Below, in pieces: positions 1 through 60,048 of a stretch of DNA of 64,000 bases (position 1 is the first letter of the stretch; every line of letters begins with the position of its first letter). The translations under genes and the position numbers were made by a program. The notes below the pieces were generated by a model that saw nothing but the letters and a program-made list of their open reading frames with translations, was not told where the DNA came from and made no database searches. The DNA comes from Paramecium tetraurelia. Taxonomy: Eukaryota > Ciliophora > Oligohymenophorea > Peniculida > Parameciidae. The DNA lies in assembly GCF_000165425.1 (NCBI RefSeq), contig NW_001799643.1:62001-126000 (forward strand), given 5' to 3'.

Positions 1-193
1 GCCAAGTGTAAGTAGCAAAAAATCTCTCTTTTGCTTCTGGATGCATGTTAATGAAAACTCTATATTTATCAATGTCGACTTTAGTCATTAAATCAGGTCT
101 GTTTGGTTGGTGATGACTGGCTTTGAGGTGATGATCACTTGCTCTGAATTTACTCAGATTCACCAATGATCGTACTCCGCTAAACTTTTACAT
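1..193 (-). CDS. Partial gene, 5' end only, unknown protein
   Basis: The frame opens with ATG at 191-193 on the minus strand and runs off the left edge without a stop, giving about 64 residues that start MQKFSGVRSLVNLSKF. It is rich in Asn, His and Lys and contains LMTKVDIDKYRVFINMHPE. No domain is recognised. The next gene starts 79 bp away on the opposite strand, so the two are divergent. The start was chosen because the frame is open and coding-like right up to this ATG. The rest of the gene is outside the window, so no function is proposed. Confidence 0.5.
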
Positions 194-272
194 TATTAAT
201 ATTATTTGATTTAAATATATAAATTTTTATTATTTTAATCATAACATTAAATAAAATTTTTATTGTTCCAAA
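194..272. promoter_or_regulatory. Short divergent intergenic promoter
   Basis: These 79 bp separate two divergent start codons (191-193 minus, 273-275 plus) and are almost pure A/T. They must hold both promoters and both 5' leaders, which is a typical size for a compact ciliate genome. No specific motif stands out. Confidence 0.4.
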
Positions 273-1256
273 ATGCATAATTATCGCGGAGTTAGACCGT
301 CTACTGCCAAAATGAACACACTACCTCCAGAGACAGAAAATCTGGAAGAGTACATGTACGATATTTCGAATTAAGGATAGGAAAATACTTTATGATCACT
401 AAAAGGCCTGTGAGAAAGCAGGTAAATATTTGGAGGCTGATTGTGCAAAATAAAGATTGAAAGAACTCAAAGCTAAATACGAATCCAAAACCAAAATAGA
501 TATAAGAGAAAGACATGAATCAGAAGTTAATTTATAATTCATAATATAGAAATATGAACTGACTCAATCACATCAAGAAGAAATGTAAAATTTCAATGCT
601 TTTTGGGATGAAAAAATACAAGAGTTTGAATAAGATGCACAGAAGCTCAAAAATGAACTATAACAAAAATAAGAAGATGAAATGCAGTAATTCCTATAAG
701 ATTTAGAAGGTTCTATTCCATAAACACCTAAAGATTCTGCAGAATTGTTGAGTCTCAAAAAAACTGAAGAGTAATTAGCAAGATAAGAAGAGTATTATAT
801 TCACATCTATCTTAGATATTTGGAAGCACATAAAATACAATCCAGAATAGTGTAGCTTCAGAAGGAAGAACAAGAGAAGTGGGCTTTAATGAGGAACAAT
901 AAAATAAAGAACCTTCTCCAGCAATAAAAGATCAAGCAAAATAATGAAACCAATGTGTTGAATTAGAGAATTGAGAATGCCTAAGAGGAGTAACGAAAAA
1001 TCAAAAAAGCAGAGGAAGAAAAGTAGTCTATATATTCACAATAGGTTAATTTAAAAGTACAATAATGTTAAAAAAGAATTAGAAGGAAAACAACTTTAAG
1101 AATTGTAAAGAGTCGACAAAGACTTTAAGAATACAACCTCTATTTTTGTAACTTCAAAAATGTCCAAAATGGCTTCTCAATCTGGTTCCTAAATGCAAAG
1201 CGAGGACTGTAAACTAATCTTTATATATTCTAGAGTAATTCAAAGGGAAAAATTGA
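273..1256 (+). CDS. Coiled-coil protein, unknown function
   Basis: With TAA/TAG read as Gln and three mini-introns (356-380, 25 nt, GTA..TAG; 1026-1044, 19 nt, atypical GTC donor; 1209-1233, 25 nt) the frame gives 304 residues. The protein starts MHNYRGVRPSTAKMNT and is helical and charged nearly throughout (for example EKAGKYLEADCAKQRLKELK), ending in a Ser/Gln-rich tail. This is a typical coiled-coil protein, possibly ciliary or basal-body, but I cannot name a family. The second intron is inferred only because the frame must shift by one there; a 1-nt indel is the alternative. The peptide RPSTAK near the N-terminus recurs at the C-terminus of the PG-rich protein at 9.5 kb. Confidence 0.75.
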
Positions 1257-1383
1257 ATATCAATTATAACATTATTTATTATATTTTACTCCTTCAATTA
1301 TGATCCACCATGAATAGTTTTTAAATATTCTGCTATTCATATTTTTATTCTATAATTGCTTCTCAAAATATAAATAAATTTTT

Positions 1384-3900
1384 ATGATGGAACAATTTAT
1401 TTCATAATTAAGTGATAAGAAATTCAGAAAAGAATTGGAGGAGTTAATTGAATAAAATGATGAGTAATTAGATATTAACATTTAGATAAACCATGGATTA
1501 ATTGATATAAGCTATGAAAAAAATTATGAATGAAAAATACCCTCCAAAGGAATGTCTCTTTGGATTAAAGATTGTTAAAGATTGCATTGAAAAATTTAAT
1601 GATAACTTTAAATTCAAAGTCAAACAACACTTAATGGATTATATCTATTAAGCAGCTATTTACAGAATAAAAGACATGGATGATGCCAGAGGAGCCACCT
1701 ATTTCAAAAACCCAGAACATGATAAGACTGTTGAATAATATGGAGCAAGTTATCATCGTTTAGCATTGGATTGCATACGAGTATGGTCCAAATGGTTTCC
1801 AGAATTTGCTGTCTATGAAAAGAATTTAATCAAAGAAAATGGATATTTACCCTAAATTAACTACTTCAAGCCAGAAGAAATATAAAGGTATATACCCAAG
1901 GCAGAAGCAACTCCAACTCCTTTGGATGAAGCTTAGTAAATTTAAATGAAAGCTTAAGAACTGCAATAGTAGCTCATTAATCTACTTAATACTAATAAAG
2001 ATGAAAATAATGCTGTAATCAATGACTTGGCCACAATTAATGCTTAAGTGGAGGACTTACTGCTTTTAGATGTTTAAAATGAATTTGTGGAGGATTTCAT
2101 CATGACATATCAAGATTATCAAGGAGGGAACCTTAGTTATCAACAATTAAGACAGCAATATATAAGGAATTAGAAATCACAATTCCAATAAGAAGATCCT
2201 TAGATTTAAAATAGAAGTAATGTATTAACATCTAAAGTTCAACAGCTACCTTAATAAATTATCACTTCAGATACTCATCCAAATATTAATTAATCACACG
2301 TTTAACCAGAAAAAAACGAAGACAAAGTGATGATTGAAAATTTAAAATAAATTATCAATTAAAATGATGTCGCAATTGAAACTATTAAATCAGTGTTGTA
2401 ACGTTAAGTACAAATAAATGAGAAGGCAAGCATTGAAAATCATCAGATATAAACTGAAAATTAGAAACTTAATTTGGAGATAAATTCATTAAAATAAAAA
2501 CTATTCGATGAACATTAATATTATTAAGATCATTTATTAGAGTTGCAACAATAAGTGTAACATTATCAAGTACAGCTCGAGTAAACAAAATAATAATAAA
2601 TAATTACATCTTAAGTAAGAGTAGGACAATAATAACAACAAGAAAGACCTATGGAATCTTAAATTGTATTTTAAAATTTGCAAGAAGAACTAGAGAATTT
2701 AAGAGTTGAAAGAAATCTGTTATTGGAATAGCAGAAAATATATTTAGAGAAAAGTAATTAGGCTTGTAGCTAATTGGATTTTATGAACTTAAAGTAAAAG
2801 TATGATGAATTGGATAGCAAATATTTTTTATTAAAATAAGAGAATCAGAAATTAAGACAAATAACACTTGAGTATAATAATCAATAGTCAGCAAATTAAA
2901 GTAGGAATATTGATAGCGTTAACAGGGAAATCGATTATCAGGACGAATATTAAAACCAGAATTTTGTTTTTTACAATTTTAAAGACCCTGATCTTCAATC
3001 CTAGGCCTTATACATCAAACCGTAATCTCAAATTACTAAAGTCAGTTAATCAAGAGATGTTTCATAACTTATTTATCCTCATAAAACTGCCTCTGAATAT
3101 TACAGGGTGCATGGAAAGAAATAGTTCAGAGGAATCCAAATTATTAGAAATTAATTCTAACTCTAATTGAATAGCACTAATATTGTGAATTTTAAGAAAG
3201 CAAGTATAAATTAATTAGCAATCTTATTTTAATCAAATAAAGTTGAGATTAAATCAAGATAATAAATTTTATACGGTAATAACTAACAAGAATTCATATC
3301 AACTACTTTGAGCATTAAAAATAAAGAACTTAAGCCTGTATAGGTCTAAATTATGAATTAACATAAAAATGTATGGGTAAATAAGGATTTGAAGAGTGTG
3401 TTATTATAATCATAATAATAAATAATGTATGAATTTATTCGGGAAGCAAAAATATAAGTTCATTCATAAACTCAATTATCTTGTTCAATTAAGTATTGCT
3501 AATTATTAATTTTATTAGTTTTGAAAATTTTATCTTATACTTACCCAATTTTATCTTGACATCATTAAAGTTTTACTCAACAGAAGCTACTTCTTTCAAA
3601 GAAATCAAGTAATAGTTTTTGGGAAAGGTTTACAAAACACAGCTGCTCCCAATTGTTTGCTTTGATGAATTAAAACAACTTAGCTAAAAGGGAGTATTAT
3701 TGAATAATTGGGATCAAGAGAATGATGAATTGATTACAGAAAGCAAATTTGGATTTAAAGCTGTATTATTGAACCAACTAGAGTTTTATTTAGAATTAAT
3801 TACAACTCCTTGTGATGAGTTTTTGTTTAGAGGGTTCACTTCTTTCGATGAAGACTTATTATAATTCATTCTTAATGGATTAGCAAATTTATTTAGTTGA
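1384..3900 (+). CDS. VHS-domain trafficking protein with adaptin-ear-like C-terminus
   Basis: Two introns (1464-1485, 22 nt; 3493-3518, 26 nt) give a clean 822-residue protein. Residues about 25-150 resemble a VHS/ENTH-type helical domain (LKIVKDCIEKFNDNFKFKV, then YGASYHRLALDCIRVWSKWF). The middle 400 residues are Gln-rich and coiled-coil. The last 230 residues look like a two-lobed clathrin-adaptor appendage: a beta-rich part ending around residue 700, followed by an alpha-ear-type platform with FYSTEATSFKEIKQQFLGK, then FGFKAVLLNQLEFYLELITT and a final LANLFS. VHS proteins (GGA, TOM1, STAM/Hrs) sort cargo at the trans-Golgi network or endosomes; appendages recruit accessory proteins. A GGA-like role is inferred. 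The first ATG pair was taken as the start. The VHS and ear assignments are my reading of fold-like patterns, not of a search. Confidence 0.7.
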
Positions 3901-50000: not shown

Positions 50001-53000
50001 CTATGAACTTATTTCTATGAATTAGTCTTTTTCATAATGGCCTTAAATTATTTATCAACGTTTTCAAACAAAGCATTTTCTTCCCTTCAATTTGGTTTTT
50101 ATGTCCTGACTGGCAAAAATATTTTCCAAATAAATCCAATTTTTCTAAACTTATAACCAATCATCCAAAGTTTCTTATGCAATCAACACATCCTTTTATA
50201 ATTTTTCAGCTCTCTTTCTCAACAATCTTCAAGTATCTACTACCCAATATATTATTTAAACTTGCCAAGAAATCATCTAAGGCAGCTTATAATTCGTCTA
50301 TTTCAGTGAGCACATAAACTTCCTTTGTTCCTTAGGTTTTCAGGCTTATAGTTAACACATGTAAATTCAAGAGCCTTCCACTTTTACTCAATATCATTAA
50401 ATTAGGCATCCAATACAGCTTCCTAGGTAGCCTAAGTAGCAACTTCTTATATCTGTTCTTAATAGATTCCAACCTTCATGTCCATTAAATTTCTTAATGT
50501 AAATGTTTCAGTGATCTCAAAGTCTTATTTCAGAATCTCCTATTTGATTTGCACCCAATGATAATCTTTTAAATTTTTATTTCTTAATGCCAATACTACA
50601 GGCATAGTATCTTTGAATGAAAATACCTTATCTTTCAATTCGTCTAAAACTTGATTTGCTGGTAATCCCTTAGAACATCTATTGACAATCTTGGTATAAT
50701 ATTCTCCTTTGGCCTTAATTTCATCTGTGTTGATATCTATAAATTTTCCATCAATCCATGATTAAGTTAATTCAATCCACTCCTTTGTAGACTTCCACAT
50801 TGAATACCTGAGATTCAAATCATTCCTTAAATCCTCTAAACTCTAGAATTAAGAAGTAGGTAATCCTAAAGTGCTTTCATAATGTCTGTATTTCTTAGCA
50901 TCTGCTTCTAGTTTCTTACATTATTCATCGCATTCTCCTAACTCTTTAATGGCTTACTCTAAACTCAATCCAGCATCAATATATTTTTTATCTTAGATAA
51001 TTCCATCTAAAGCACCAATCTACTTCTCCAATTGAGGAATAAGGATATGTTGGACATCTCTTGCAAATCTATCAAGTTTAGATTCTGCTCCTTCTTCTGC
51101 ATGATGAATAGCTTATTCCAATAGATTTTATGCTTAAATGATATCAACTACATATGCTTGTTTGTCTTCTTTCTTCACCTCTATCTTATATTCATCAAGA
51201 TATATTATATATGTGACCAACAAGTGAAATCTTAGATTTGATTTTATTTAATTATTTTTGAATCAATTTCAATGAATTACTTTGCTTAACAAATTCATCA
51301 ATATTTGTAGTAGCTCCTTTCAAAGCAGCTGTTGATGATTATAACCATTCCTTTAATTCTTTGCACCTATTTCTTAACATTGGTTATATAAACGCATCAA
51401 ATTACTTCAATAATTCAGCTGGTAGAGGTTCCAACTTCTTTTTTAATTCAACAGAATCAATCTTAAACAATCCTTGCATACTTTCAATAGGAATGTCCTT
51501 CTAAAATTATTCCTTCTGCATATTGAGTACTGCAATCGTGTACTAAAATGTGTCTCCAGGATGTGCCAATTTCTCATCTTTGAAAATATCTATATTAATC
51601 TATTTGTCTTCCCAATAAGTCAATAAATGTTTGTTAAAATACTTCTCAATGTATTTATCAGCTCTTTCGAATGCTTTTTCTAGAATATTCTTAACAACTC
51701 CTGTAAATGTTTCAAGTGGTGCTGAATCCAACCAATCTGAAGGATTCAAATAGTTAGATTCTGGATGTCCCCACTCTTCACCAACCATATCATCCCATTC
51801 TTCCAACACAGCAACGTATTAAGTCATATCGTTGTGTCTGCTCCATCTCTCAAACGCTTAAATTGCATTCAATCCCTCTCCTATACACTTTACAATATCA
51901 GCATGAAATGTATTCAGTTATGGTTTTTTAAAAATCCAATGCTTAGAAATATTGGGAATCACTATTCTTTTATAAATTTTATTTTCATCATAAGTTCCTC
52001 CGTCAGTCTCATCTTCTTCACTATCATCATCAACCTTGCCCTTCTTACCTCCTTATGGTTTTTCTGCTTGCTTTTGCTCTTCTGTCTTTTCTTCTTGTAA
52101 ATGAGCATGATATAGTATATGAAAATCATCGACAGTGCTATTACCAAAAGGTTGAGGTATGAATTCTGGGATGTCTTCAGTTTACATATCTTCTGAAGGT
52201 ATTTAATCGAAGGTGCAATCTAACTTAATCACAAAGAGAGGTTCATCAAATCTGATTGGGGGTTTGTTGCTTGCTTCAAATGTGACATTGAAATCATCAA
52301 TTGATTCTAAGGATTTTAACTTGGATATCAAGTCTCTCACTGAGAGTGTATAAATGTTGCTCAGACTTTCCATTGCTAAAAAATCAACTAGATATGAAAA
52401 GCGCAAGAATTTCGAACATTCTTTCCTTAACTATGATCTTTTCTCATATGTCATGCTATCTGGGAATTATAGGGTTTCATATGCAATTTCTCTTGTTCTG
52501 AACACATTCGTTCCGGTATCTCTTGGAGCATTTCCACCGAATTATTCATCATTTTAAGGTACATAGTTCTACTTTCTTAGAATATCCAATGATTTATCAT
52601 ATCCACTTTACACAACTTTTCTACATGCTTGAGAATATGATCTAATTTTGAGACTCACTTTATTCCTATATTGATCCTATAATTATTTGAACTATTCTAA
52701 AGTAAATGTGCTATCATTCATGGTCAATTAATGAGATGTTTCAAATCCGATGAAACGACAAGACTCCATCATTTCATAGGTATTTTTTCTAACTGTAAGT
52801 AGAGTTTCTCTCATGATGGGGTTCAATAAGAAATATTTGTCCAAAAGAGCATTCTAAATTGTTTTGGTTTTGTGTTTGATCACATTGCTCTTCCACATCT
52901 TAAGGGTTTTCCATTTTCTGAATTTGGTAAAGAATTTCAATGATTTAATTTGATGATAGGTCTGTCTTTCTCTGAGCCAGTTTCTAAGTGGTATGAATTC

Positions 53001-53752
53001 GGTGGGCTTGCCATTAATGTAATGACATAATCCTTTTCTTGAAATGGTGTAATATTCTTTAATTTCAGTTTTCTTATCATCACCTTTAATGGTTTTATAA
53101 TCCACAACTGCCAACATGTAAGGATCATCTTAGCCATCTTCTTCTTCTCTTACAAGATAAATATATTCATCCACACTTGTTGTATTACTCAGAATAAGGT
53201 CTATGTATTTGTCTAACTTGGATTTGGTTTCCTTCTCAGTAACCCCAAACTCTTCATCGTGTGCCAATGTTTCCTTAAATGGACTTTAAATACGTGGATC
53301 TGAATCAAGAGGTTTGAGTTTGAAACGAGATCCTAGTGAACTCATGCCAGTTTTTCGCATTAAGTAGTTACGCTCCTCTTCTGGCATGATGGCCAAGTAT
53401 TTTTAATCGATTTAGAACTTACCCGATAATTTGTCTACGAGGTATTTGGTTCTGTAGAGCTCATCTACATTTTATTTGAAGGTTGTCCCCATGGTCATTC
53501 TCAGTGGGTCCAGTTTTTGCTTGCTTTATTGAGCAACCAGTTTGGGCACTAACTACAAATAGGGAGATTGAATTACTTATTGTTGGGTTCGAGTGACTGG
53601 CCTTTTCTGCTAACCTCCTCGATCATACAATCGAGATTTTAATTGCAACTGATTTGGGGATTTCTAATTATGAATATCACGCGCATTACCACATTTCGCA
53701 ATTATTCGTGTTCATCCTAATCTTCGTATTCCTGAGACTAGAAGAATGACAT
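41008..53752 (-). CDS. Axonemal dynein heavy chain
   Basis: Roughly 4,180 codons. The start MSFFQSQEYEDQDEHEQ is joined by a 26-nt intron (53664-53689) to the body; the last intron is 41086-41115. Order of landmarks (N to C): tail ([20 protein letters not shown] near 51.8 kb), linker ([18 protein letters not shown] near 49.9 kb), AAA1 P-loop GPAGTGKTE (about 49.1 kb), [23 protein letters not shown]2 GNTNSGKTS (about 48.25 kb), AAA3 GPTGTGKSQ (about 47.2 kb), AAA4 [10 protein letters not shown] (about 46.12 kb), stalk coiled coil and microtubule-binding region (about 44.3-45.4 kb), and the C-terminal [20 protein letters not shown] and [13 protein letters not shown]. The length fits single-headed inner-arm heavy chains better than the longer outer-arm type, but I cannot fix the class. 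At least three single-base frame breaks (about 46,143; 49,022; 49,083) disrupt conserved AAA1/AAA4 sequence. Confidence 0.9.
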
Positions 53753-54021
53753 TTTTCAATATATTAATTATTTAAGTTATCATTTTTTGTAATTTGTTTT
53801 TATTAGGAATTACCAAATCAAATATAATATCGGCAAAAGAATTCTCCTTTTGCTCACATGACTGGATGGAGGGACGAGAAGAGAGAGAGGGAGAAATTAA
53901 ATTCTATAAATATAAACTTTTTAAAATGGACTCAATTTTGATCTAAAATTTATTTGCTAATCTTAAACATGGTTTTAAATAGAAGGTATGATAATTCCAT
54001 TATAAAAATTAATTAATACGA

Positions 54022-57000
54022 ATGTATACTGTTTATACGTCATAAAATGGCTCAATTGCTCTTAATAACTGCTTGACTTTGCCCTACGACACTTTATTGA
54101 GGGTCGTTCTGTGCTCGAGAAACATCTTCTCATCCACTCCAGTACTCATCACAAATATTCAACATTCGACTCGTTCTCCCTCGAAGAAAGGTTCTCCAAG
54201 GAAACCATAGAAAGGCTATAAGAAAATTCTAAGAGGAGATGAAGAAGCCTTATTGCCGATGCCCTTCTACTCCGTCTACGAGCCCTATCGATATAATATA
54301 TCGAATGATGGAGACTATGTGTTTGAGATCAAATGTCGGCAATTAGGCCCAAGTTTCCTCAGAATAATCTGGTTAGAATCTAGATGATAGAAAGATTCAG
54401 GAAATGGGATAGCCTTTCCATTTTTTTAGTGTGGAATCAATTAATGTTTAATCTCAAAGATTTGACCATTTAGACAGTCTTACCAAATTTAGTAAAGAGA
54501 TGGGATTTGGAAGGGTTTTAAGCATTTCATTTGTGTCCCATACAGGAAGTATCTCATAGCCTATATGCGATTAAGGATCATTTGAGTATAAAATACTTTC
54601 GAGATTTCGAGGAACTACATAATTTTATCTAATCGTCTAAAAAGATCTTTTTCATCGATGTAGTGTTGAATCACACTGCGAAGGAGAGTCAATGGTTGGA
54701 TGATGAAGAATGCGTGTACAACGAAAGAACTGTTCCGCAACTAACATCGGCTCTTGAATTGGATTTCGCTTTAGAATAGGTATAGAAATATGAGGATATC
54801 GAAAAAGTGATAAAGGCATTTAGAATTGAGGAGTACTTCTAGATTGATTTGCGAAAGATAGATTGGATGGAGTTTCAAGTGGAGAATGAGAATGCAAATA
54901 GTGATGATGATGATGATGATGATGATAATATATTCATGGAATCCAATCAGGAGAAAAATATAAAGTTGATCGAAATGTATTTGTCAAATTTTGGAGTGTC
55001 CAGATATGGAGTATCCTTTAATTTCAGGAGGTTTTAGCAGGAATTAGGAACTCATCAATTGACTGTCAGTCAAATTCTGAAGGCTTTAAAATGTATTAAT
55101 GAAAAATAATTCAAAAGGGCCAAGTAATATGAAGCAGAATCTATAGCTAATAATTAAGCGCATTATTAAAAGTATGGGTGTGTTTAGAAGTACTTCTACA
55201 AATTGAAGAGTTGGTATGCTGCCTATAATGGTTATGTGGATAACATTGATCCCGAAGAAGACTTCGTAACCAGCCAAAACTTCCATTATCTCAGACACAC
55301 TGTCAACAAATGGAATGTAATTAAACTACGCTATGGCAACAAACGAGACACTCCACTATTGCTGAATCGAATGAAACAGTACATCTGTCAGATGGCTCGT
55401 TATTTTCATGGCATTCGATTGGACAATTGTCATGGCACTCCTCTGACAGTTAGCTAATACTTACTGAAACATGCTAGAATGGAGAATCCTAAATTATTGG
55501 TGTTTGCTGAATTGTTTGGTTGCTCATACAAATAGTAAATTAAGTATATGAGTAAATTAGGATTGAATGGATAAGTGGACGAATTATTTTATTGTAGGAA
55601 CGCATCCGCCATAGTTCATAAATTATAAACTTGTGCTTTCATCCCTCAAATCTCAGGACCCTACAGATTAATTTATGATTAAACTCACGACAATTAACCA
55701 CCAATTGTTTCATCTCAAGGACCAGGCTATCTCATGTCCTTAGTATCAGCCTTATCCTTCAGTAGCTAATTCAAAGGAACTACCAAATTAGTCGATGAGT
55801 TCTATGATAAGCACATTAGTTGTGTCTATGAAAATCGTTATTACCCTCAAATCAATTAATAACTATACGATATAGAAAAACGACCTATCACTTTCATGTG
55901 GAAACACACTCCTCCAATTTCAAGTAGTTCAAATCAAGGAGCAGCACTTCCAAAAGTAGTTAAATTAAAAGGTTCATTTGATAATTGGTAATAAGAATAT
56001 TTCCTTTAAAATGATCAAGAAAACCCTAAATATTTTACTTGTCAGATAGAATTATCACCAGGTGTTTATGAATATAAATACATTATCGATGATGTATGGA
56101 CAGTAGATGAAAATCAATAAACGAATCATATGAATAATATAATTGAAATTAAACCCATCAAAGCTTACTCATCATTGACTTTCATTCGGTAACTTACCTA
56201 AAATTAAATATCACACACCTATATGGAGTCTATTCATGAGTAAGTCATGATTATCACCAGATGTCAAGAGGATCATTTATAGAATGAAACAATTGTTATT
56301 TGTTTGAGACCCATCATTCGTAAAATTAAACTGTATTCCAAGATATCAAGTATATTGTATCAATACTCATTCCAATACAGCGGAAAAGAAACTCAGAATC
56401 TCGATGACGAGATCAAAGTCAAAGAGCATTACATAGATGTCACCACTTCCTATGCTAAAATCAACGATGATATTTTATCCATCAATGCTCCCACCTCTTG
56501 TGTTATCATTTTGTAATGTGAACCTATTTTAGAAATACAAAAACTAAACGAGTTCCTGTTGACTCCCTTTAATTGTGATGACGATATGAATCTTCTATAT
56601 CAACCTTTGATAAATCATTATGAAGTACCAGGATGTGGTGTACTCTGCTATTCAGGATTGTATGGAGTATTGAGGTTTATCAATAAGATTGAAACTCTCA
56701 AAGACCCATTCATACAACACATTCGAGAAGGTGATTGGCTTATCGATTATTTATGCGATAATCATTCTTGTTTGGTACCAATTCTAACAATAATCAAATA
56801 ACTGCCTTCAGTCTTTAAACCCCATTACTTCATTAAATGCATAAAGCATATTGTGCAGAGCATTGAAGACAAATATACTCAACACAGAGAGATTTTCTTT
56901 AAATAAATTGATATCTTATCCTCTTATTTTACCAACTACGATTTCATTAAAGGCAGAGAAACCTTTATGAGTTTCAAGGGTATTTTGATTTTGACAAGTA

Positions 57001-58229
57001 AAAATTCATATGTTATTTTTAGATAAGGTTGTCGAAGCCAAAGCCTTGATTTTTAAGTATGGTAACCTAATGCAACATGGCCTCATTCCTAATTCATTAA
57101 AACCACTCAGATATAACACCAGGGACACATGCTTTTGGTGGATCAAGGCCATCCGTGATTATGTAACGTATACTGATGATTTCTCGATCATTAGTTTATT
57201 GCAAGAATAAATTCAATGCATTTTCCAATCTCATGCAACAGGCATCAAATTTAAGGAGATATATGTAAATGATGACACTGACAAAGAAGTAATTCATTAG
57301 TATTTATTATAGGGTCTGGTTGTGGAGCTTAAACTGGATTCAGAAACTGGTTTCATTATGGGAGGCAACTACAAGAATTGTTTGACTTGGATGGACAAAA
57401 TGGGATCAGGCACACTAAATAAAGGATATCCTGCTGCATCCAGAGATGGTGCCCCTATTGAGTGTACTGCATTGTTAAAAGCATGTCTCGATTTCATTGG
57501 GAAGATGCATCAATAGAACAAATTTACTTATCCAGGAATTAAATTAATGAATAGGACGGTCACTTGGAGAGCATGGTCGGATTTTATTTGCCAGCATTTT
57601 GAAAAGAGCTATTACATTCCTGTTGATCCCTCCTATTACAGTGAATATTAGGTGATTGAGAAACATGTAAGGAGGAAAGGAATCTATAGAGACATCTTTA
57701 GATGTTCAAAACCTAGATCTGAATATCAATTAAGACCCAATTCTTGTATTGCTATTGCTTTGGCTCCAGAATTGTTTTAAAAAAATCATGTCATACACCA
57801 TTTAGCATTGATTGAATCCAATTTGATGAGTCTAAACTCACTTGGCTTAAGCACTCTGGATCCTATTGCAAGTGAATACAGTGGAAAATATATTCAATTG
57901 ACTGATCGGTTCAATGCCTAAGATGGATTCTCCATTCACAATGGATCTGAATTTGTATTCTTGCTTGGATATTATCTGAAGGCATTGCTCAAAATTCATA
58001 AACAGGATATCAAGAAAGAAATATTTTATGCCTATCTTGCTCCCATCAAACAACATCTAAAGGAATAGTAAGATATTAATATTTATATTCTAGTTATTCT
58101 TTACCAGATTTCACTGATTATAATGGACAATTAAGTGAGTTTGCTCAAAAATCCTCTATATTAAGCATTGCACTTTTAAAAGAGGCCATTTTCGATTTAG
58201 AGGAATTTAGTTAAAAACTATAAAAATGA
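54022..58229 (+). CDS. AGL: Glycogen debranching enzyme (AGL) with internal CBM48 module
   Basis: Introns at 54335-54362 (28 nt, atypical CAG end), 54446-54473, 56998-57022 and 58068-58093 give exactly 1,366 residues. The N-terminal 4-alpha-glucanotransferase half has FIDVVLNHTAKESQWL and the active-site loop GIRLDNCHGTPL; the C-terminal amylo-alpha-1,6-glucosidase half has RYNTRDTCFWWIKAIRDY, SRDGAPIE, GLSTLDPIASEYSGKY and NGSEFVFLLGYYLKA. It removes branch stubs during glycogen or amylopectin breakdown in the cytosol. Between the halves, about 55,881-56,152, an AMPK-beta-like carbohydrate-binding module is inserted: ITFMWKH, KLKGSFDNWQ, GVYEYKYIIDDVWTVDEN and NNIIEI. An (Asp)8 run lies at 54,903-54,926. 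The start MYTVYTSQNGS is the first ATG in frame. Confidence 0.92.
54903..54926 (+). repeat. (GAT)8 microsatellite coding for eight Asp
   Basis: Eight perfect GAT triplets inside the debranching enzyme, encoding an acidic run in a loop not conserved in the family. It is a pure codon repeat, so length is likely to vary between strains. Confidence 0.95.
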
Positions 58230-58284
58230 ATATTTGATCATTGCTATTAATAATTAATTTCAATTTAGATTAATGTTGATATAA

Positions 58285-59211
58285 TCAAGACTTTGATTGA
58301 GTCATCAATCTTAATTGTTATTACAATAGAAAGGTTTCCTCTATCAATGCTTACAAATACTAGTCTTTCAAGTCTTCCTGCTATCTTATTTACTTGTTGA
58401 ATCTCTCTTGAGCAGCAACCATAGACTTGTTTTTCTCATATCTCTTGATGATACTTTCCAAATCTTGGCCTTCAAGTTTGGGCTTTCTAATTATCCCCGT
58501 TTCCTTGAAATGAAGGATTTCTTATTCTAAGTACTTCTTCTGATTGATCAAATTTTATATTTATCTAAATACATTTGAAATGCTCTATACTTATCTTTTG
58601 ATGAGTTTTATTAATTCAAAGAGGATTTATGAAAAGGCTCATAGGATATTTTCTTAACATTAACTAATGTAGATTTGCCAATCAACAATTGATCGCCTAC
58701 ATAATCATGGCCTTCAAATTTATGGGGTATTATTATTTTAGCTTATTTCATTGTTGATAACTTTTATTTCATTTGCTCATGCAACTCTATATTTTATTTT
58801 TTTAATTCTTCAATAACCTTCTATAATTCCTTTATTTATTCTATTGCTGGACCCAAACTCTCTTCTAAATTACTAATTCCTTAATTAGATTTGCTATTTA
58901 TAATATTAAAAACTAACTGTTAATTTGACTTTTATTGTGTATTTTAATCATTTAATTTATCATTTGCTTTATTTGATGCAATGGCTTTAGTGATTTATGA
59001 ATATGTTATTGGTTCTTTCTCATATATCTCCAATCTAATTTTCAATGTTTTATTGTGCGATAATAGTACTCTTAATTCAAAGTGATAATCATATATAAAT
59101 ACCATCACTTAAATGTTTGATATACATTTAGGAATGACTGAGGGGATCTGATGCTTATTTAATTTCATTAATCCAATCAGAAGAGATTGTTAGTTGCTTT
59201 TGTTTATTCAT
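58285..59211 (-). CDS. Coiled-coil protein (~300 aa)
   Basis: Begins MNKQKQLTISSDWINEIKQA. Blocks in order: DYHFELRVLLSHNKTLKIRL (beta-rich, about residues 50-75), an Asn/Lys-rich linker, IEQIKELQKVIEELKKQNIE (coiled coil), PHKFEGHDYVGDQLLIGKST, then a 26-nt intron (about 58,566-58,591) and a second coiled coil with PKLEGQDLESIIKRYEKNKS. Near the start, around 59,100, one join is not explained by a canonical intron; the total length also implies one missing shift. The KPKLEGQDLE-type element recurs in ciliary coiled-coil proteins, but I do not assign a family. Confidence 0.6.
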
Positions 59212-60048
59212 AAATAAAATAATAAATTGTTATTAGTTCAGAAAAATAAAATTTCCTATAATGTATTTAATGATTGATTAAAAAAATATAAGGAAAAGCT
59301 CTCAAGTATTATATTATATATTGCCCTCATAGCTATATTGAATAGTAAAAGAATCAATTACAATATAGCCAATATTATAATTATACTGATATATTTTAAA
59401 CAAGTTTACAGAGTTTATAAATATTCAAAGTAATCTTTTAAAATATTGAAATTAGACTAATATATATTGTATTTCTCATTAATATAATGGCAGAACACAT
59501 AATACGAAATGATTTTTGAGAATAAATTGAAAATAAAAAGAGAACTTATAAAATATCGAATTTTAAATATTTTCTAAAATATATTTATGTCTCTTTACCA
59601 TTCATGATCCCTCCCTTCTTTATGAAATGCATGTATCTCGCTCAAAATTCAAAGATCGAATAAAAAGCTTAGAAACAGTATTTTCCTAAAAATTCAAACT
59701 GAATTAATCAATTATTTTATAAAGAATTTTATCTGAAACTTACAAAGTTATCTTAGAGTACTTATTCAAAAAAGCAAAGAGAAACAATTTGATTAAGATA
59801 TAAATTAGTTTTGAAGTTTGTAATATGGTGAATCAATCTTCTAAATTTGAACTAGTACTGTTTTCGTACGAGTTCCTATTTTCATAGTAATATACAATTG
59901 TTTATGATAAAATAGATCGTATGATTTTAAAATCTTGATTGGTTGTGTATTATTTGTAAATACTTGAGATTCTTGACTTTCTGGCTGTTGTAATTTAGTT
60001 ATCATCGCAGAGTTACTCTATGATCTTTAATTAATACATTAATAAAAT
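59212..60048. other. Divergent intergenic region, nothing seen
   Basis: About 840 bp of very A/T-rich DNA. No frame shows family resemblance. A minus-strand piece near 59,600-59,630 is mildly protein-like but very short. Confidence 0.35.

Follow-up and report, generated by a model that had tools for sequence, protein, structure and literature searches.

Eukaryotic debranching enzymes, of which human AGL (8zeq) and the Candida enzyme CgGDE (5d06) are the closest described systems, are built from a transferase, a central and a glucosidase domain in that order, and hGDE_N is the N-terminal domain of the family (PMC4236520; all papers given here by PMC number are cited from excerpts). A glycogen-binding module is known from AMPK, where mutation of W100, K126, W133, L146 or T148 in beta-1 leaves glycogen binding markedly lower, and N150 is a further contact (PMC2642990; PMC4032982). 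The CBM48 modules (PF02922) of branching enzyme, isoamylase and pullulanase are N-terminal (PMC4236520). Here, we describe an AGL-type gene in a 64,000-nucleotide stretch of Paramecium tetraurelia DNA, referred to as the window (positions 62001-126000 of contig C224, in a genome of 69.07 Mb and 231 contigs). It almost certainly joins the two systems, with an AMPK-type module lodged within an AGL-type enzyme. Our reading, to which we assign a probability of roughly 0.55, is that the gene is a diverged AGL paralogue, anchored to glycogen and probably acting as a transferase only.

The coding frame depends on the genetic code. Under table 11 the longest open reading frame overlapping 53000-60000 has 87 residues, and under table 6 long frames are open. 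Spliced translation in ciliate code 6 gives four exons on the forward strand, 1375 residues and a TGA stop, and bears out the span of 54022-58229 given by the initial annotation; an end at 58296 was dropped for 58229 once the third intron was placed. Code 6, introns of 25-29 nucleotides and a 69-Mb genome in which regions are duplicated all point to a Paramecium-like ciliate. Pfam scans of 54022-54369, 54393-57002 and 57025-58293 (reporting limit E<=1) returned hDGE_amylase, AMPK1_CBM, hGDE_central and GDE_C in this order along the gene, so the domain order of the eukaryotic family (hDGE_amylase, hGDE_central, GDE_C) is present with the module added:

54022-54371, 54401-56997, 57023-58067 and 58094-58229 (TGA), + strand: exons of the AGL-type debranching-enzyme paralogue, from code 6 translation
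54504-55496, + strand: glucanotransferase domain, PF14701 hDGE_amylase (E 3.4e-45, profile positions 32-438 of 439)
55881-56159, + strand: AMPK-type carbohydrate-binding module, PF16561 AMPK1_CBM (E 4.6e-15; a 1z0m chain matched at E 7.3e-6)
56613-56756, + strand: central domain, PF14702 hGDE_central, best stretch (E 1.5e-9)
57031-58067, + strand: glucosidase domain, PF06202 GDE_C (E 9.5e-61, exon 3)

The module occupies about residues 611-703, in frame and entirely within exon 2 (54401-56997). As the initial annotation stated, the segment lies between the enzyme halves and leaves the frame unbroken, and the peptides it quoted are present. The AMPK1_CBM profile scores it at 56.0 bits, above the curated cut-off of 26.8. 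A profile built from six modules of other proteins gives the window protein 46.1 bits and the modules of two further AGL copies in the genome, on contigs C38 and C8, 45.3 and 44.1 bits. Among 1000 shuffled versions of the window segment the highest score with this profile is 8.4 bits, which rules out a chance match. In a PDB search with the module, AMPK beta-1 chains rank first (7.3e-6), followed by pullulanase (5ot1, 5.5e-5), AMPK beta-2, SIP2 and plant glucan phosphatases; none of the 24 distinct PDB sequences matched at E<=1 is an AGL chain. That library does include human and Candida AGL chains, which the remainder of the window protein matches, in agreement with the earlier statement that animal and yeast AGL lack the module. 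The Pfam family of the module is AMPK1_CBM. CBM_48 (PF02922) is absent among the four Pfam families at E<=1, a search in which HMMER filters discard most weak matches, and a pullulanase X25 match in exon 2 is weak (0.017, under cut-off). No AMPK beta C-terminal complex-interaction domain was found at E<=1 in the three scanned stretches, the last exon (58094-58229) being unscanned in its own frame. The module is inside an enzyme and not part of a kinase subunit.

The segment could instead be foreign to the gene, carried by an intron or joined to it by a chimeric assembly. We found nothing in favour of this and consider its probability negligible: the modelled introns measure just 25-29 nucleotides, the module is in frame in one exon, and the insert stands at the identical site, between '...ERRIYN' and '...TMEL', at the two other loci. 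For the same reasons an intron or a separate gene is ruled out.

The contact residues that the module shares with AMPK, numbered by rat AMPK beta-1, were placed by alignment:

55986-55988, + strand: Trp, equivalent of W100
56076-56078, + strand: Lys, equivalent of K126
56097-56099, + strand: Trp, equivalent of W133
56133-56138, + strand: Asn-Asn, one of which is equivalent to N150

All four are present in the window module and three of the four in each of the C38 and C8 modules. The module quite probably acts as a glycogen tether, and tethering to the polymer, proposed in the initial annotation, appears the most plausible role on sequence grounds. The AMPK precedent also bears on what would be recognised: oligosaccharides with a single alpha-1,6 branch inhibit AMPK most strongly via the module, and glycogen gains potency once phosphorylase has cut back its outer chains (PMC2642990). 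By this analogy, recognition of branch points seems better founded than sensing of branch length, and the module would be expected to keep AGL at its own substrate, because that substrate consists of phosphorylase-trimmed branches.

By alignment, the start of the module lies some 20 residues past the equivalents of CgGDE L713 and V714, which contact donor-branch residues (PMC4837477), and its end lies ahead of the central domain. Unlike the N-terminal CBM48 of the enzymes named above, it comes after the transferase match (residues 522-588 versus 38-368 of the scanned stretch). In C38 it ends at 236 and the hGDE_central match starts at 252. The stretch that separates the flanking matches is 218 residues long in C38 and 137 in CgGDE; C38 exceeds CgGDE by 81, or about one module. 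The module would sit in a loop after the last barrel strand, on the active-site face, if the alignment is a fair guide. CgGDE relies on patches of its own surface for glycogen association, severely lowered in Y408A, W958A and D1400A (PMC4837477), whereas the family member described here has a dedicated module, near the donor-branch site in sequence. The proposed task, recruitment to glycogen, is the same. The window copy, C38 and C8 all have Ala at D1400 but retain Y916 and W958.

The module is not an isolated oddity of the window gene. The GDE_C profile has seven matches in the genome, at four loci (the window gene on C224, and C225, C38 and C8), and also matches in 6 of 14 control genomes; the AMPK1_CBM profile has 16 matches at about 12 loci, those in AGL genes being C224, C38 and C8, and matches in 1 of the 14. 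All three near-full-length AGL copies thus carry the module. The fourth, C225 (112300-119800), is a deleted relic that duplicates the window region, with 3.8 kb of upstream DNA 93.4% identical; it retains only the tail of the module and so once had it. Judged from these sequences, the insertion is older than the AGL duplications. The ratio of non-synonymous to synonymous substitution (dN/dS) between C38 and C8 is 0.076 (0.061-0.094) over 1368 codons, with 0.045 for the transferase, 0.098 for the central domain, 0.074 for the glucosidase and 0.226 (0.104-0.477, 83 codons) for the module, the highest of the four parts yet far under 1; the module is under constraint. A search for relatives with exon 2 of the window gene gave no pattern match in viral contigs. 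The transferase alignment, run against prokaryotic and viral contig collections, produced 65 and 77 pattern stretches, respectively, and tblastn confirmed not one of them.

What distinguishes the window copy from C38 and C8 is found in its catalytic heads. We compared the three copies with CgGDE in an alignment of four, numbered by 5d06, in which X stands at frame breaks in C38 and C8 and, in CgGDE, where the matches printed no letter. Identity between the window protein and CgGDE is 30.2% (133/441) in the transferase domain and 34.5% (135/391) in the glucosidase domain. The window copy, C38 and C8 all retain the transferase residues R533, D535, E564, H669 and D670. The glucosidase pocket is altered: of 13 positions drawn from PMC4837477, seven are changed in the window copy (H1066S, W1075K, D1078E, L1115S, Y1424I, E1492D and D1503F). 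C38 and C8 keep six of these and differ solely at D1503, where they have F, as does human AGL. The residues concerned map as follows, all by alignment:

55422-55424, + strand: Asp, CgGDE D535 (transferase nucleophile), kept
55509-55511, + strand: Glu, CgGDE E564 (transferase proton donor), kept
55689-55691, + strand: Asp, CgGDE D670, kept
56949-56960, + strand: K-G-R-E, replacing W1075-G-R-D1078 of the glucosidase pocket
58107-58109, + strand: Asp at the position of the CgGDE general base E1492

At D1078, D1241 and E1492, C38 and C8 thus match CgGDE, and the window copy has E, D and D instead; in CgGDE the mutants D1078N, D1241A and E1492A have lost glucosidase activity (PMC4837477). The E1492D call is based on the four-sequence alignment together with the match of C38 to 5d06; the last 87 residues of the window protein have no PDB match of their own at E<=10. 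The initial annotation regarded the enzyme as otherwise an ordinary two-headed one, a description that is not supported, as six glucosidase positions kept in C38 and C8 are changed. We regard the glucosidase head of the window copy as likely to be impaired. C225 has the same substitutions at W1075 (K), L1115 (S) and Y1424 (I), so these changes are older than the duplication that separated it from the window gene. Its residues at 1078 and 1066 are K and T, and position 1492 has no clear counterpart in it.

From this we infer glycogen binding, a branch preference, glucosidase loss and a division of labour. The module, beside the transferase cleft, would hold the enzyme on phosphorylase-trimmed, branch-bearing ends of glycogen; the transferase head is predicted to be active and the glucosidase head weak or dead. 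The window enzyme would then shift maltotriosyl stubs, and the last alpha-1,6 glucose would be taken off in trans by copies of the C38 and C8 type, which carry the module as well. Such a transferase-only copy beside a canonical one is workable, because mixing transferase-dead and glucosidase-dead CgGDE mutants restores debranching in trans (PMC4837477).

Could the window enzyme still be an ordinary bifunctional debranching enzyme that has gained a glycogen tether and tolerates its pocket changes, with both heads working? The glucosidase domain remains 48.8% identical to that of C38 (198/406), its dN/dS against C225 is 0.273, and D1241, R1123, N1114, N1125, D1207 and Y1407 are kept. However, D1078, E1492, W1075, H1066, L1115 and Y1424 are altered jointly, all six being kept in C38 and C8, and the first of these positions is one at which a single substitution, D1078N, kills the glucosidase in the Candida enzyme (PMC4837477). 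Two working heads are possible, but we doubt it.

Many donor and main-chain cleft positions are unlike CgGDE in all three ciliate copies, and four differences are private to the window copy: W470Y, I494N (V in C38 and C8), D498N and a gap at E188 (Q in C38 and C8). Drift in both catalytic clefts would suit a regulatory pseudo-enzyme, one that would attach to branch points in glycogen and there compete with AMPK and other module proteins or signal to them, catalysis being secondary or lost. In this genome an AMPK-beta-like protein and Kelch proteins bear the same module, which also lies next to a GT5-type synthase. The intact transferase triad and its neighbouring Arg and His (5/5) speak against it, and we consider a pseudo-enzyme unlikely.

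The gene may also be decaying in the way of its partner C225, with the module as a relic. Five deletions (821, 442, 241, 142 and 34 bases) have removed more than 1.6 kb from C225, which also has five in-frame TGA codons, and in the window gene the first two exons are joined through an atypical intron:

54372-54400, + strand: putative intron 1, 29 nucleotides, placed at a frame change between exons, with atypical GTTAGA...CAG; alternatively small indels
56998-57022, + strand: intron 2, 25 nucleotides, GTAAAA...TTTTTAG; excision restores AGL homology
58068-58093, + strand: intron 3, 26 nucleotides, GTAAGATATT...TTCTAG; excision restores AGL homology

Against decay, 1375 codons are open and introns 2 and 3 are of the typical short GTA...TAG type. 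The dN/dS of the window copy against C225 is 0.248 (0.192-0.307, 789 codons), despite one branch being a dead gene, with 0.196 for the N-terminus and transferase, 0.299 for the central domain and 0.273 for the glucosidase; the module offers merely 21 pairable codons, too few for a ratio. The window module, moreover, keeps all four listed sugar contacts against three in C38 and C8. Decay is very improbable.

Several observations nonetheless weigh against a glycogen-anchored, transferase-only paralogue. On the side of the module, the N150 equivalent is missing in C38 and C8, and L146 and T148 of AMPK beta-1 are unmatched in the window module (a gap and His) in a shortened loop that aligns poorly; the AMPK-beta-like gene on C84 deviates likewise at these two positions (His and Asn). 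A single-sequence AlphaFold2 prediction of 55782-56262 has a predicted local distance difference test score of only 30.5 and is uninformative on the fold, so that a beta-sandwich is not shown. On the side of catalysis, D1241 and the five other glucosidase residues named with it above are kept, the exchanges D to E and E to D are conservative and activity might remain, and the private cleft differences could mean that the window transferase is weakened too. As for the genes, C38 and C8 show small frame-breaking indels relative to each other in the coding part (two 2-nucleotide insertions in C38, three 1-nucleotide insertions in C8); they may be real or assembly errors, and we call these copies near-full-length rather than intact. 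In the window gene the first splice junction (54372-54400), which lies outside the module, is uncertain: the C225 duplicate aligns with single-base indels there, and exon 1 alone (54022-54369) has no Pfam family at E<=1, with the exon 1/2 junction uncertain.

Each component, debranching enzyme and AMPK-type module, is already known, as is what each does separately. An AMPK-type module inside AGL is not described in the parts consulted of the papers that searches of open-licence literature found, which is no proof of absence from print, and public ciliate proteomes may well show the combination without anyone having remarked on it. In the excerpted text of PMC4236520, Paramecium tetraurelia is listed with GDE_C enzymes and the general eukaryotic architecture is given without such a module. 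Two questions become testable. One is whether an enzyme is steered to alpha-1,6 branch ends by an AMPK-type module; the other is whether the two debranching activities can be divided among gene copies in nature, as mutant mixing showed to be possible in vitro.

The AMPK-type module is widely used in this cell. Pfam searches of module-bearing loci other than AGL covered C84, C167, C44, C211 and C159 (C44 and C211 as stretches). The gene on C84, which has a near copy on C3, we take to be AMPK-beta-like from its module (107 bits) and from a downstream stretch judged by eye and by known motifs. With considerable doubt, one may picture an AMPK branch-point reader that a ciliate lineage fitted next to the transferase site, with labour then divided so that a canonical two-headed pair stood on one side and a transferase-only copy on the other, and with AMPK-beta-like, GT5-type, Kelch and AGL proteins competing for branch points. 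If true, this competition would couple energy sensing, synthesis and debranching.

The remaining loci are diverse. On C167 (87000-92500, about 3-3495) a GT5-type starch/glycogen synthase (Glyco_transf_5, 6e-34) is followed by a module in the next frame (8.1e-16); the stretch ahead of the synthase is amylase-like by eye, with no Pfam match there, and C6 has a similar gene. Kelch-repeat genes on C44, C149, C211 and C2 have AMPK-type modules ahead of the repeats, with two module matches per locus; we know of no other proteins in which Kelch repeats and this module are combined. A coiled-coil-rich gene on C159 (about 2299-2697) has a partial module match of 23.7 bits, under cut-off.

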